From positions 1-64,000 of the forward strand of contig ONJB01000010.1 in assembly GCA_900318015.1 (NCBI GenBank): a DNA stretch of 64,000 bases, read 5' to 3'. The DNA is from an uncultured Bacteroidales bacterium (lineage in GTDB: Bacteria > Bacteroidota > Bacteroidia > Bacteroidales > UBA932). The notes under the pieces are model-generated. The model was not told the DNA's origin. It did no database searches and saw only the letters and a program-made list of their open reading frames with translations. Shown here one piece after another: positions 1,241 through 43,520 of the stretch. A program made the translations under genes and the position numbers. Every line of letters starts with the position of its first letter. Position 1 is the first letter of the stretch.

Positions 1241-1394
1241 TGTACAAGTCTCGCATGTACATCAAGACGGCCCTCAAACGGGGTTTCCATGTACAAGTCT
1301 CCCGGGCGTAAGCCCCAGAAGGCAAGATTGGCGGAGACTTGAACACAATTGTCGCCTTTGAAACGCCTGAACTTGTACAAGCGAGACTTGTGCA
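1241..1394 (+). repeat. 154-bp structured element, copy A (solitary)
   Basis: The layout is arm 1241-1261 (21), spacer 1262-1289 (28), inner hairpin 1290-1345 (56), spacer 1346-1373 (28), arm 1374-1394 (21). Each arm is a hairpin: stem TGTACAAG, 5-base loop TCTCG, stem close to CTTGTACA. The right arm is the inverted copy, with loop CGAGA. The inner part opens with TGTACAAGTCTC and closes with GAGACTTGAACA, giving a stem of about 12 bp around 31-32 bases that include GGGC-GTAA-GCCC. Copies B and C have the same lengths to the base but different spacers. No transposase gene is near this copy, so it looks non-autonomous. Confidence 0.85.
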
Positions 1395-40903: not shown

Positions 40904-41336
40904 ATTCCGTATTTTTTTCGGAGTTTCTTAGGAAACCGCCTTCCCCCTTTGTTTCTTTTCCCCTTTTCTTGTTTCTTTTTCTTTTTTCACATTCGTCACT
41001 TTGTCCTGCTCACCCTCGTCCCGCGCCGGTGTACAAGTCTCGTATGTGCACCGCTCTGCTCCTGGAACTGCGTTTCTCTGTACAAGTCTCGGCGGGGGAG
41101 ATCGATTTCGGCCTCTTCCCGAAAGACTTGAACATAATATCTCCATGGCAGGGACGTTCAGTTGCACAAGCGAGACTTGTACATGGGGGGCCGACCACCG
41201 GAAACCTCTCCACTCGGACCCATCCTCCCGCCGACACCCCCCCCGCGAATAACCACCCATGGACCAGCACCCACGCGGAGGATTCCCGCCCACCTAGAAA
41301 CACCAACGGTACCTACACACAAAAGAGACCCGAGGA
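40904..41336. other. 433-bp non-coding region between blaI operator and transposase gene
   Basis: There is no supported gene. It contains a T/C-rich stretch (about 40910-40990), the 154-bp element B (41030-41183) and 153 bases of unremarkable sequence before the transposase stop. Confidence 0.6.
41030..41183 (+). repeat. 154-bp structured element, copy B
   Basis: Arm 41030-41050, 28-base spacer, inner hairpin 41079-41134, 28-base spacer, arm 41163-41183. The left arm stem is TGTACAAG with loop TCTCG; the right arm is TGCACAAG, CGAGA, CTTGTACA. The inner stem is TGTACAAGTCTC with AGACTTGAACA. The GC-rich core (GGCGGGGGAGAT...CTTCCCG) can extend the stem. Every segment length equals copies A and C. 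Confidence 0.88.
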
Positions 41337-42272
41337 TCATAGAACGAGGCATCGACGAATCTGTGCCTCACCGGCCAGGCGGCGGCGAAAGAGTTCGCTG
41401 GCGATGTTGTTCTTCTCGCGGGCGGACAGCTGATAGACCGACCGCGCCCGACACTGCGGAACATATTGATTATCAATCAGCTCACACAGTTGCAAGTCAT
41501 TGAATCCCAGCGGCGTGCCGCGGTTCTTCTCGTTGCGGAGCATTTCGGCGATGGTCTTTTCGCGGGAGGCCGCGCGCTGTAAAACCAGATCCTCGAAGTT
41601 CTCTAGGGTGATAGGCGGGCGGCCGTTGTTATCGGCCTCCTGTTCCTGGCTCCAATCTTCACCGCTCAGACGGGTGATCAGATAGTTGAACGCTTTCGGC
41701 GTGGCATACAGATTCTCGACCACTTCCGTCTCAATGACCGACTCCCGCAGAAACACCCCCTCCACCCCCATCTTCCACTGAGGGTTGAATCTCGCCCGGC
41801 GAGGCAGGGCAGCCTTGATCTGGGCAGGCGTCAACAGCAAATCCGGCGCATACAGCTTTCCTAGCTCCTTCCGGAAATAGGCATTGGCCGAACAGAACGG
41901 CCACTCGAACGGCGTAGAGGTTATGCCATGATGGACGGAATTCCTGACGGTATAGGAAATGGCCGTCAACTTATGCTGCAAGCCCTCCAATTCCATTTTG
42001 AAATAACTCGGTTCGCCCAACGGCCCCTTTCGGCCATACTTCTCGTTGAAATAGCAAGTATAAGCCTGGCGCTTAATACGGATCAGGAGGTCTGGACATT
42101 CCGTTTCATAGCAACCATGATGATGGTTGGGAATGTCGTTCTCGGCTAGACACCGGCTGTCCGTCTTTTCCAAAGCCGAACATAAACAATTGAAGGAACG
42201 ATTCATATCTTCTACATTCCGATACATGACTTCCTGGTGGGAAGTATAACAAAGGTGATATGTCTTAAGCAT
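41337..42272 (-). CDS. REP-associated (RAYT/Y1 HUH) transposase-like protein
   Basis: A 311-residue protein from ATG 42272 (MLKTYHLCYTSHQEVMYRN); the longer frame starts inside element C. It fits the Y1/IS200-like fold in order: a first strand, the HUH-type histidine cluster NDIPNHHHG, the helix LIRIKRQAYTCYFNEKYGRKGPLGE with candidate catalytic tyrosines, and SYTVRNSVHHGITSTPFEW, the usual YxxRNPVxxG equivalent. The C-terminal half ends with a helical tail (SVYQLSAREKNNIASELFRRR, QIRRCLV) shared with Bacteroidales homologues I recall, usually annotated hypothetical or transposase. RAYTs nick and move REP hairpins. The AT-rich first spacer of element C may hold its promoter. The canonical MPNHxH is altered, so activity is uncertain. 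Confidence 0.8.
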   Translation of the reverse strand: MLKTYHLCYTSHQEVMYRNVEDMNRSFNCLCSALEKTDSRCLAENDIPNHHHGCYETECPDLLIRIKRQAYTCYFNEKYGRKGPLGEPSYFKMELEGLQHKLTAISYTVRNSVHHGITSTPFEWPFCSANAYFRKELGKLYAPDLLLTPAQIKAALPRRARFNPQWKMGVEGVFLRESVIETEVVENLYATPKAFNYLITRLSGEDWSQEQEADNNGRPPITLENFEDLVLQRAASREKTIAEMLRNEKNRGTPLGFNDLQLCELIDNQYVPQCRARSVYQLSAREKNNIASELFRRRLAGEAQIRRCLVL

Positions 42273-42292
42273 GGTGATTCTCTTATTGGCCT

Positions 42293-42446
42293 TGTACAAG
42301 TCTCGCTTGCACACGATATATATTGTGGGTTGATGTTTTTCTGTCCAAGTCTCGCCGGAAAGACCAGAAAACCAGGTATTTCGCAAAGACTTGTACACGA
42401 GACCCGGTCCTCTTGGCCGTTTCGGGGTACAAGCGAGACTTGTACA
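42293..42446 (+). repeat. 154-bp structured element, copy C
   Basis: Arm 42293-42313 (stem TGTACAAG, loop TCTCG, stem CTTGCACA), 28-base AT-rich spacer, inner hairpin 42342-42397, 28-base spacer, arm 42426-42446. The inner stem is TGTCCAAGTCTC with AGACTTGTACA. Here the left arm is the well-paired one, whereas in A and B it is the right arm, so C may be inverted relative to them. It ends 24 bases before the stop of the EEP gene. Confidence 0.88.
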
Positions 42447-42470: not shown

Positions 42471-43520
42471 TCAAGGGGGCAACGACACCTCCAGCAGGAC
42501 GGGAAGATGGTCGGAGACGCCGCCGGTATGGCGGGGGCCGGTGTAGGTGCGGAGGGGTTTCTCGCCGGAATGGACGGTGTCGCGCGTGAGCAGGAAGGGA
42601 ATCCGGAGGATCTGCATCCGGGCTCGGGCCGATGGGGCCCCAGCCTTGTCCGTCTGTCGATCGACATCTCCCGAGAAAGAATCCAAGGTCGAAGCGGACG
42701 TCGGCGCTACGACCAGGGCCGGGGACACATAGATATGGTCGATGAGATCCCATTTTCCGTCGTACTTGATGGTGCCGAGGCCGCGGCGGTAAAGGTCCAT
42801 ATGCATCGGCACCAGCGTAGGTTCCAGCCGCCGGAAGACGGGATTGTCGGGGGTATCGTTGAAGTCGCCCCCGGCGATAATCCGGTCGATGCCGATGGCG
42901 GCGAGTGAATCCGCCAGGAATCGGAGCCGCTCCACGGCAATCCGCCGCCGGGGCTCCGACTCCGCCGCTCCGCCATACTTGGACGGGTGGTGGTTCACCA
43001 GCACGGCGAAAGATAATGGGTCGGTCATGACAAGGGGACCGGCGCGTTTGAACACGCACAGCAGGATATCCCGCGTGGCCATGACGGAGTCCGCGGCATA
43101 GAGATGGCAGGGCTTGGAGTCCAGAAGTTCCAGGCGGGAGGAACGATAGAGCAGGGCGACATCGATGCCGCGGCGGTCGGGGGAGTCGTAATGGACATAT
43201 TTGTAGTCCAGTTTGCGGAGCGCGGTCTTCTGCAGAACCTGCCGCAGGACGAAGGCGTTCTCCACCTCCTCCAGGCCGATGATGTCCGGCAGCCGCCCCG
43301 TCTCCGTCTCCACCCAGAACAACGCTTTCGCAAAGGCATTCGCCTTCGCCTGGAACCGCTTCCAGGTCCAGTGCCGCTCCCCCGCCGCCGAAAACTCCAT
43401 GTCCGACACCGTCGTAGAGTCATTCCGCCAGTCGAAGAAGTTCTCCACGTTCCAGAACATCACCTGAAGCGTGTCCGCCCCCGGAGCCACAAAGAGCCAA
43501 ATGAATAACAATGTTCTCAT
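42471..43520 (-). CDS. endonuclease/exonuclease/phosphatase (EEP) family hydrolase
   Basis: A 349-residue secreted protein (short hydrophobic N-terminus MRTLLFIWLFVAPGA). EEP landmarks in order: MFWNVENFFDW (Asn/Glu metal site), DIIGLEEVENAFVL (catalytic Glu), HYDSPDRRGIDVALLYR, LVNHHPSKYGG, IAGGDFNDTPDNP (Asp/Asn pair) and a final GVSDHLPVLLEVSL (catalytic His). The fold covers nucleases and phosphatases; secretion suggests extracellular DNA or phosphoester use, but the substrate is open. Element C lies directly after its stop. It is a single gene with a possible TAACTTGG promoter just upstream. Confidence 0.88.
   Translation of the reverse strand: MRTLLFIWLFVAPGADTLQVMFWNVENFFDWRNDSTTVSDMEFSAAGERHWTWKRFQAKANAFAKALFWVETETGRLPDIIGLEEVENAFVLRQVLQKTALRKLDYKYVHYDSPDRRGIDVALLYRSSRLELLDSKPCHLYAADSVMATRDILLCVFKRAGPLVMTDPLSFAVLVNHHPSKYGGAAESEPRRRIAVERLRFLADSLAAIGIDRIIAGGDFNDTPDNPVFRRLEPTLVPMHMDLYRRGLGTIKYDGKWDLIDHIYVSPALVVAPTSASTLDSFSGDVDRQTDKAGAPSARARMQILRIPFLLTRDTVHSGEKPLRTYTGPRHTGGVSDHLPVLLEVSLPP

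Follow-up and report, generated by a model that had tools for sequence, protein, structure and literature searches.

Introduction

RAYT proteins, the partners of repetitive extragenic palindromic (REP) sequences, are believed to work on hairpins of single-stranded DNA. Atypical structures at the flanks of Bacteroidetes RAYT genes have already been described (PMC6006769), as have RAYT-like genes with double-palindromic long flanking repeats (PMC3733652), and, as far as the main texts of these reports go, the association of RAYTs with cognate repeats and the presence of odd repeats in Bacteroidetes are already known. This work concerns a RAYT-like gene and a 154-bp structured element in a stretch of 64,000 nucleotides from an uncultured Bacteroidales bacterium (contig ONJB01000010.1 of assembly GCA_900318015.1, positions 1 to 64,000; hereafter the window), in which two copies of the element bracket the gene and a third copy stands apart. 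Across the RAYT loci of the genus, we find that marks of duplex DNA geometry, namely an arm spacing of mostly whole helical turns and a dyad-centred A/T code in the spacers, recur with unrelated arms over dozens of protein clusters.

Among the described systems, the REPtrons of RAYT/TnpAREP subclass 2.6 (Bertels group 5) likewise combine a Bacteroidetes HUH/Y1 protein with atypical flanks that lack the GT[AG]G foot and with copies elsewhere in the genome; however, the protein of the window, P0001, carries Y-T-V-R-N (YTVRNS) and not YIH[QN]NP, has 311 residues against about 179 (a table value read as a length), and lies among elements whose fixed whole-turn spacing and phased A/T have no counterpart in the main text of that description (PMC6006769). 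The TIRtrons, or TIRYT, resemble the present system in having a RAYT-like gene, long and partly self-complementary repeats unrelated to GTAG REPs, and small families elsewhere in some genomes, whereas their hosts differ and their main text reports no constant helical spacing or spacer code (PMC3733652). REPINs and bacterial interspersed mosaic elements (BIMEs) share the arrangement of two inverted palindromic units at a preferred distance, with a RAYT between inverted REPs and a regular BIME spacing, but they have a GTAG-type foot and usually a far higher copy number, and the word 'helical' is absent from the main texts (PMC3116915, PMC2817692). In open-licence literature text, supplementary tables aside, neither whole-turn spacing nor phased spacers turned up in any account of RAYT elements.

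Results

Anatomy of the elements in the window

The first-pass annotation of this DNA had described three elements of exactly 154 bp, each divided 21-28-56-28-21, two of which bracket a RAYT-like gene; re-reading the window bore this out, and the account was correct but fell short of what the loci show. Element A (1241..1394, no strand assigned) is a dispersed copy with no RAYT gene alongside, its arms lying at 1241-1261, 1290-1301, 1334-1345 and 1374-1394. Element B (41030..41183, no strand assigned; arms 41030-41050, 41079-41090, 41123-41134 and 41163-41183) is located 153 bp 3′ of the RAYT stop codon, and element C (42293..42446, no strand assigned; arms 42293-42313, 42342-42353, 42386-42397 and 42426-42446) 20 bp upstream of the start codon of the 311-residue gene, the distance given before.

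The anatomy of these elements is solid. The word TGTACAAGTCTC, on which the arms had been said to be built, matches the window 14 times at up to 2 mismatches, against a mean of 1.93 and a maximum of 5 in shuffled sequence, and 12 of the 14 matches are element arms. On a layout self-complementarity score with a maximum of 73, elements A to C reach 63-66 and the best non-overlapping place 39, a score of 41 being the register one base off element A. All three elements carry the GTTT noticed earlier at spacer positions 22-25, which belongs to a peak of A/T spanning element columns 44-48. By eye, no GT[AG]G foot of a canonical REP was seen in four elements of the source genome, the hairpins of which begin with TGTACA, and their 154-bp unit does not correspond to the 20-40 bp of a canonical REP unit.

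Arm spacing across the RAYT loci of the genus

The RAYT loci of the genus are flanked by elements with differing arms, and arm spacing was determined at 165 of them, mostly the best-scoring ones; L190 was unusable, which left 164 loci in 116 clusters at 80% protein identity. Defining a lag by an arm word that occurs on both strands with a repeated lag, we obtained a concordant lag in 87 of the 116 clusters, against 2 of 348 dinucleotide-shuffled controls of the flanks. Seventy-nine of these 87 lags were 51-53 bp (8 clusters), 71-74 bp (49), 82-84 bp (21) or 104 bp (1), that is, about 5, 7, 8 and 10 turns of 10.4 bp, in four bins that were named after the data had been seen. When periods between 6 and 22 bp were scanned, the best fit came at 10.55 bp, flat over 10.35-10.6 bp, with an R of 0.82. 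On a midpoint-rooted FastTree tree of 85 proteins, at least five separate lag changes landed near whole turns, from 7 to 8 turns four times (the window/L035 clade, L036, L059 and L120) and from 7 to 10 turns once (L033). The F-to-R distance gave no signal of helical phase, a test that carries little weight because seed words fall at differing places of the arms.

Arms were present on both flanks in 56 of the 80 clusters with a classed lag, and the 80 arm words of these clusters formed 54 groups, with related clusters such as those of the L035 clade sharing similar words. Three loci stood out on reading. At L029 (G055), the lag of 48 bp is that of a 48-bp tandem satellite on both sides of the RAYT, unlike the other loci read, and L039 (G037) and L066 (G023) carry arrays of seven to nine hairpins at the side of the RAYT with rigid periods of 83 and 72 bp; a CRISPR-like memory array was considered for the latter two and dropped, the spacers between units being diverged but related in sequence.

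A/T periodicity of the spacers

In 12 non-redundant 154-bp elements, 9 of which lie away from a RAYT, the A/T content of the spacers is periodic at 10.3 bp with an amplitude of 0.254, whereas the largest amplitude among 2000 shuffles was 0.096. The same held throughout the genus: with the arms masked in 77 clusters, taken from the 80 in lag classes and leaving out 7 off-bin clusters, the mean normalised power at 10.3 bp was 6.36 against 0.88 for shuffled sequence and exceeded 3 in 62 of the 77, and the 5-, 7- and 8-turn classes each peaked at 10.3-10.4 bp. Power in 123 elements was 6.30, while the same index pattern laid over RAYT genes (n=615) and outer flanks (n=681) gave 0.88 and 0.99, respectively. 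At 10.3 bp the signal resides in A/T versus G/C (5.68) and far less in purine/pyrimidine (1.52) or amino/keto (1.63), and it is kept when clustering is relaxed to 60, 50 and 40% (4.92, 4.90 and 3.69 in 38, 19 and 9 clusters).

In the 7- and 8-turn classes this periodicity keeps a fixed phase relative to the palindrome centres, with resultants of 0.64-0.69. In 35 isolated doublets, drawn from 30 seven-turn clusters and aligned on the dyad, the A/T fraction is 0.91 at 0 bp, 0.29 at 3 bp and 0.97 at 10 bp; the corresponding values for the eight-turn class (21 doublets, 15 clusters) are 0.95, 0.12 and 0.93. The amplitude at 10.4 bp falls from 0.24 in the element centre to 0.02-0.04 outside. Spacers and cores had at first been taken as free in sequence, a view that does not hold: 11 of 31 exact type-1 copies were left after removing those with at least 50% spacer identity, and their spacers still share 35% identity against the 25% expected from composition, in addition to the A/T period.

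The control outside the order comprised 30 Y1 loci, the best-scoring ones, which are an unsorted mix of IS200-like and RAYT-like genes with reading frames guessed by script. Scattered lags occurred in 9 of the 30, whole-flank A/T power was 1.03 and 2 of 60 flanks exceeded 3; the contrast is here weaker than with masked arms, because unmasked flanks of the genus themselves give 2.38 in clusters with a detected lag and, alike, 2.22 in those without. The flanks of E. coli rayT gave A/T powers of 0.61 and 0.01.

Copies of the window family in related genomes

The 21-base hairpin of the window family was searched in 15 genomes with up to 3 mismatches. It was found in all 8 genomes that hold the P0001 gene or a 76-95% relative and in none of 7 other genomes of the genus, six of which have no match in the genus survey, the seventh, G033, holding a protein of 58% identity whose elements have other arms; G434, the arms of which are different, gave only 4 weak matches. 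The elements thus track the transposase, as had been supposed, and do not occur equally in genomes without it. Ninety of the 119 hairpin matches are paired at a distance of 132-134, corresponding to elements of 153-155 bp; 4 matches next to the G188 RAYT form pairs that are spaced differently, and the remaining 25 are unpaired at the 3-mismatch limit.

From these matches we collected 53 distinct copies in 9 genomes including the source, a set that is not a census, part of the matches having been fetched, lengths of 141-167 bp accepted and weaker hairpin pairs dropped. Thirty-three of them measure 154 bp, 16 measure 153, 2 measure 155, and single copies 152 and 143 bp, with part lengths of exactly 28/32/28 in 33 copies and 28/31/28 in 13. 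The length, previously called rigid, is therefore nearly so (152-155 bp in 52 of 53), and the spacers do not vary freely in length, but the rigidity is not absolute: besides the 143-bp copy, L184 carries a 195-bp copy with an internal duplication beside its RAYT, outside the 141-167 bp scan. The deviations of these two from 154 bp, -11 and +41 bp, are close to one and four helical turns. The two copies lie side by side (L184:4033-4175 and L184:4265-4459) downstream of one RAYT gene. Dispersed copies are demonstrated for the window family, the only family searched, and keep the layout far from any RAYT.

Two further observations concern the surroundings of the copies. At L231 (G000:C11:12970-12990), a lone window-type hairpin runs straight into arms belonging to another RAYT family (GTGCTCGTACAGGTCC, also present at L070), a junction that looks as if one element replaced or entered another. 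Beside element A, two short repeats at 1107-1135 and about 1545-1582 of the window recur many times in the genomes of some relatives, the former mainly in G188 and G434.

Change of arms at constant layout

The locus L187 (RUG193) has a RAYT 93% identical to P0001 at the same locus, but its arms are of the TGTACGCTGCTC type: a 155-bp copy lies downstream of the gene, and a lone 21-base hairpin remains upstream. Residues peculiar to L187 among six aligned proteins include 29, 73, 87, 89, 92 and 145, and a further TGTACGCTGCTC-type copy of 154 bp occurs at G434:C82. The pairing of protein and arms is not exclusive, because G375 carries both arm types, window-type arms flanking its RAYT and yet three type-2 elements being present as well; no second RAYT was found beside these type-2 copies in the stretches fetched. 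On the sequences compared, arms demonstrably differ between RAYT lineages while the layout stays nearly constant.

Occupied and unoccupied sites were both seen among relatives. The site of element A is occupied also in G188 (C33:12978), whereas G434 and G334 are without element A together with its surroundings, 462 and 505 bp being missing. Conversely, the window is unoccupied at 43462..43513 (no strand assigned), as are L184 and L187, where L189, G334 and G375 have a 153-bp element, G256 and G271 a variant-arm element and G108 a remnant; about 280 bp are there replaced by about 50 bp. Of the empty sites expected by the first-pass annotation, sites with and without an element exist, but clean boundaries do not: at the two sites compared, no precise empty site with a target duplication was found, the missing regions exceeding the element. 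Such presence/absence differences between species would fit movement or loss. At the second site, the register of 153 bp is the same in the copy of G375 (type 2 arms) as in those of L189 and G334 (type 1), but their spacer identity of 43-44% is just slightly higher than the background of 35%; an in-situ switching of arms is thus no more than a lead.

The RAYT-like gene and its distribution

The gene between elements B and C (41337..42272, minus strand) encodes the Y1/HUH protein P0001, with HxH at residues 50-52, a conserved Tyr107 and a C-terminal helical part. P0001 alone gave no match above noise against Pfam and scored 16.5 bits with NCBIfam REP_Tyr_transpos, below the cut-off of 80. Its placement as RAYT-like comes from the aligned family members: 10 of the 14 are hit by REP_Tyr_transpos with E values of 1 or less (1.8e-10 at best), and Pfam Y1_Tnp matches 3 of 14 members of the P0001 subfamily and 5 of 5 of a distant paralogue subfamily. 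Together with H50, H52 and Y107, which are invariant in 14 of 14 aligned members, these matches sustain the RAYT relationship first proposed for the gene, and Y107 would be the catalytic tyrosine of the Y1 domain. The middle residue of the HUH motif is often non-hydrophobic in relatives of P0001 (HHH, HTH, HCH, HNH), and all 14 aligned members share an HH pair at residues 114-115, a little beyond Tyr107. Sequence searches of solved structures returned nothing for P0001 or its family; for the distant paralogues they returned weak IS200-type transposases only (E 1.2), and 1 of 5 paralogue members weakly resembles a helix-turn-helix (E 0.025).

Six near relatives with 86-95% identity come from rumen or forestomach Bacteroidales assemblies (RUG253, RGIG3197, RGIG4404, RUG193, RUG12336 and RGIG6537), and a seventh database match, to a Falkowbacteria sequence (30% over 93 residues), was set aside. 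Of 400 genomes of the genus, perhaps Cryptobacteroides, 317 hold a P0001 relative at E up to 1e-10, with at most five candidates scored per genome. Such genes are rare outside it: P0001 weakly matched 1 other-genus genome among 101 relatives (by genus, 2 of 41), and the alignment of the distant paralogues matched 3 of 295 genomes of the order, two of the same genus, the source included, and one of the same family. The source genome holds seven such genes. An endonuclease-like neighbour gene, named from a reading of its open reading frame, is the same in G033 (L026), L184-L189, G271 and G256; with regard to an IS200/IS605-type unit that moves with its gene inside, this shared neighbourhood across genomes suggests that the RAYT gene may have descended vertically.

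Discussion

Based on these findings, we propose that the locus probably represents a REPtron-like system in which the RAYT and its cognate elements form a phased complex on duplex DNA; the binding, wrapping and transposition themselves are steps that we infer. The reading as duplex DNA follows from three observations, namely that the lags cluster at multiples of about 10.4 bp, that A/T is phased at 10.3 bp, and that the spacers barely add to folding. The RAYT, alone or with a nucleoid protein, would bind the palindromic arms of the double-stranded element, and the phased spacers would make it possible for the DNA to be bent or wrapped, bringing palindromes separated by one superhelical turn (73-84 bp) together on the same face. 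In such a complex the HUH/Tyr domain might nick and process one strand, with occasional mobilisation of a copy, or might repress its own gene, while the arm specificity would drift with the protein and the geometry would remain constant. Since the arms change with the RAYT lineage, the RAYT is a natural candidate for the agent that wraps the DNA, although this is suggestive only. A bolder version, which we put forward tentatively as the less probable one, is that of a domesticated transposase clade in which the C-terminal domain of the RAYT wraps about one superhelical turn (73 or 83 bp) guided by the 10.3-bp A/T code, the wrapped complex and not the single-stranded hairpin being recognised, copied and kept in register, and the arm letters diversifying into private specificities within the genus. 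Nucleosome-positioning DNA offers a parallel, as it shows an A/T versus G/C alternation every ~10.3 bp with dyad symmetry in units comparable to the 113-154 bp or so seen here; the present elements differ in being bacterial, in having sequence-specific palindromic arms and in being tied to a transposase-like gene.

Several observations weigh against this proposal. The loci were not a random sample, and the effective number of lag events is small, perhaps six, because lags are inherited within clades; we estimate the chance that all six fall within 1.5 bp of a whole turn at about 1 in 100 to 1 in 1000. Eight of the 87 lags lie outside the bins, once each at 38, 42, 48, 49, 63, 86, 89 and 107 bp. 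Among them, the lag of 38 bp (L181) arises from a self-complementary word, and that of 49 bp belongs to the window's own cluster, which also has an 84-bp lag; in the window family the 49-bp spacing and the 66.5-bp distance between hairpin centres are not whole turns, whereas the 84-bp arm lags are. Two distant RAYT paralogues, L045 (lags of 88-89 bp) and L048 (75 and 86 bp), look truly off-phase. No concordant lag was obtained in 29 of the 116 clusters, which probably hold undetected elements, since their flank A/T measure matches that of the lag-bearing clusters. In the periodicity data, the single 10-turn cluster peaks at 9.2 bp, and in the 5-turn class one kind of centre showed no phase-locking (resultant of 0.15 in 5 clusters), while the result for the other kind rests on 3. 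On the side of the protein, AlphaFold2 gave poor models for 6 sequences, that of P0001 having a mean predicted local distance difference test (pLDDT) score of 37.7 and being confident only at residues 257-310, modelled as three main helices, and a fold search of the PDB with this model returned no match; a duplex-binding domain in the RAYT is therefore only suggested.

One alternative, which appears unlikely to us, is that these are ordinary REPIN/BIME-type elements: the RAYT would see the arms only as single-stranded hairpins at replication and mobilise the elements, and the constant spacing would simply follow from the geometry of a hairpin or circle. This alternative would account for the relation to a RAYT, the hairpin-forming arms, the dispersed copies and the presence/absence differences between species, and REPIN doublets of P. 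fluorescens are described in the main text of their report as preferring distances of 71 and 110 bp (PMC3116915). Mirrored spacer positions are also complementary slightly above chance (33% of 528; 57% given the same A/T-G/C class). However, a single-strand geometry asks neither for multiples of ~10.4 bp nor for A/T phasing at 10.3 bp, the A/T signal is lacking at E. coli rayT and at the 30 other Y1 loci, and shuffling the spacers alone gave a mean z of -0.63, the fold energy coming mostly from the arms. For the same reasons, the earlier idea that the spacing is read stands in its first half, in that the spacing does look read, while folded single-stranded DNA or RNA as its reader was rejected as the main reading, the spacer letters adding little to folding. 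It is in turn very improbable that the elements act at the RNA level as terminators or mRNA stabilisers: the predicted folds of the three whole window copies are strong (-59.4 to -66.8 kcal/mol), but this folding again lies mostly in the arms, and a 10.3-bp A/T code has no meaning for RNA.

Two further explanations keep the DNA double-stranded and assign the geometry differently. Wrapping by a host nucleoid protein of the HU/IHF kind, with the RAYT having merely spread the elements or being a bystander, would suit the phased A/T, which resembles bendable DNA in general, and REP sequences are reported, in the main text of a RAYT survey, to bind host proteins such as IHF (PMC6006769). Yet a general nucleoid protein has no need of arm words that differ by lineage (80 in 54 groups), and the family hairpins are absent from 7 of 7 genomes that have no P0001-type RAYT or a differently armed one; we consider this explanation improbable. 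Of slightly lower standing still is the view of the elements as operator pairs through which the RAYT gene regulates itself by looping, the dispersed copies being relics. Operator pairs of looping repressors are indeed phased by whole turns, and the median distance between upstream arms and start codon is 124 bp (65 clusters measured), with 20 bp separating them in the window; on the other hand, at least two arms lie downstream only in 14 of 80 clusters, with both contig ends long enough, and RAYT-distant copies keep the layout. The proposed phased duplex complex with the RAYT thus remains the reading that we prefer.

If it is true, a bent or wrapped DNA intermediate enters the account of RAYTs and REPs, and the genus would provide a DNA-bending code that is bacterial, natural and diversified. 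With so many pairs of protein and arms, among them two 93%-identical orthologues with different arms, the recognition specificity of RAYT proteins would be directly testable.

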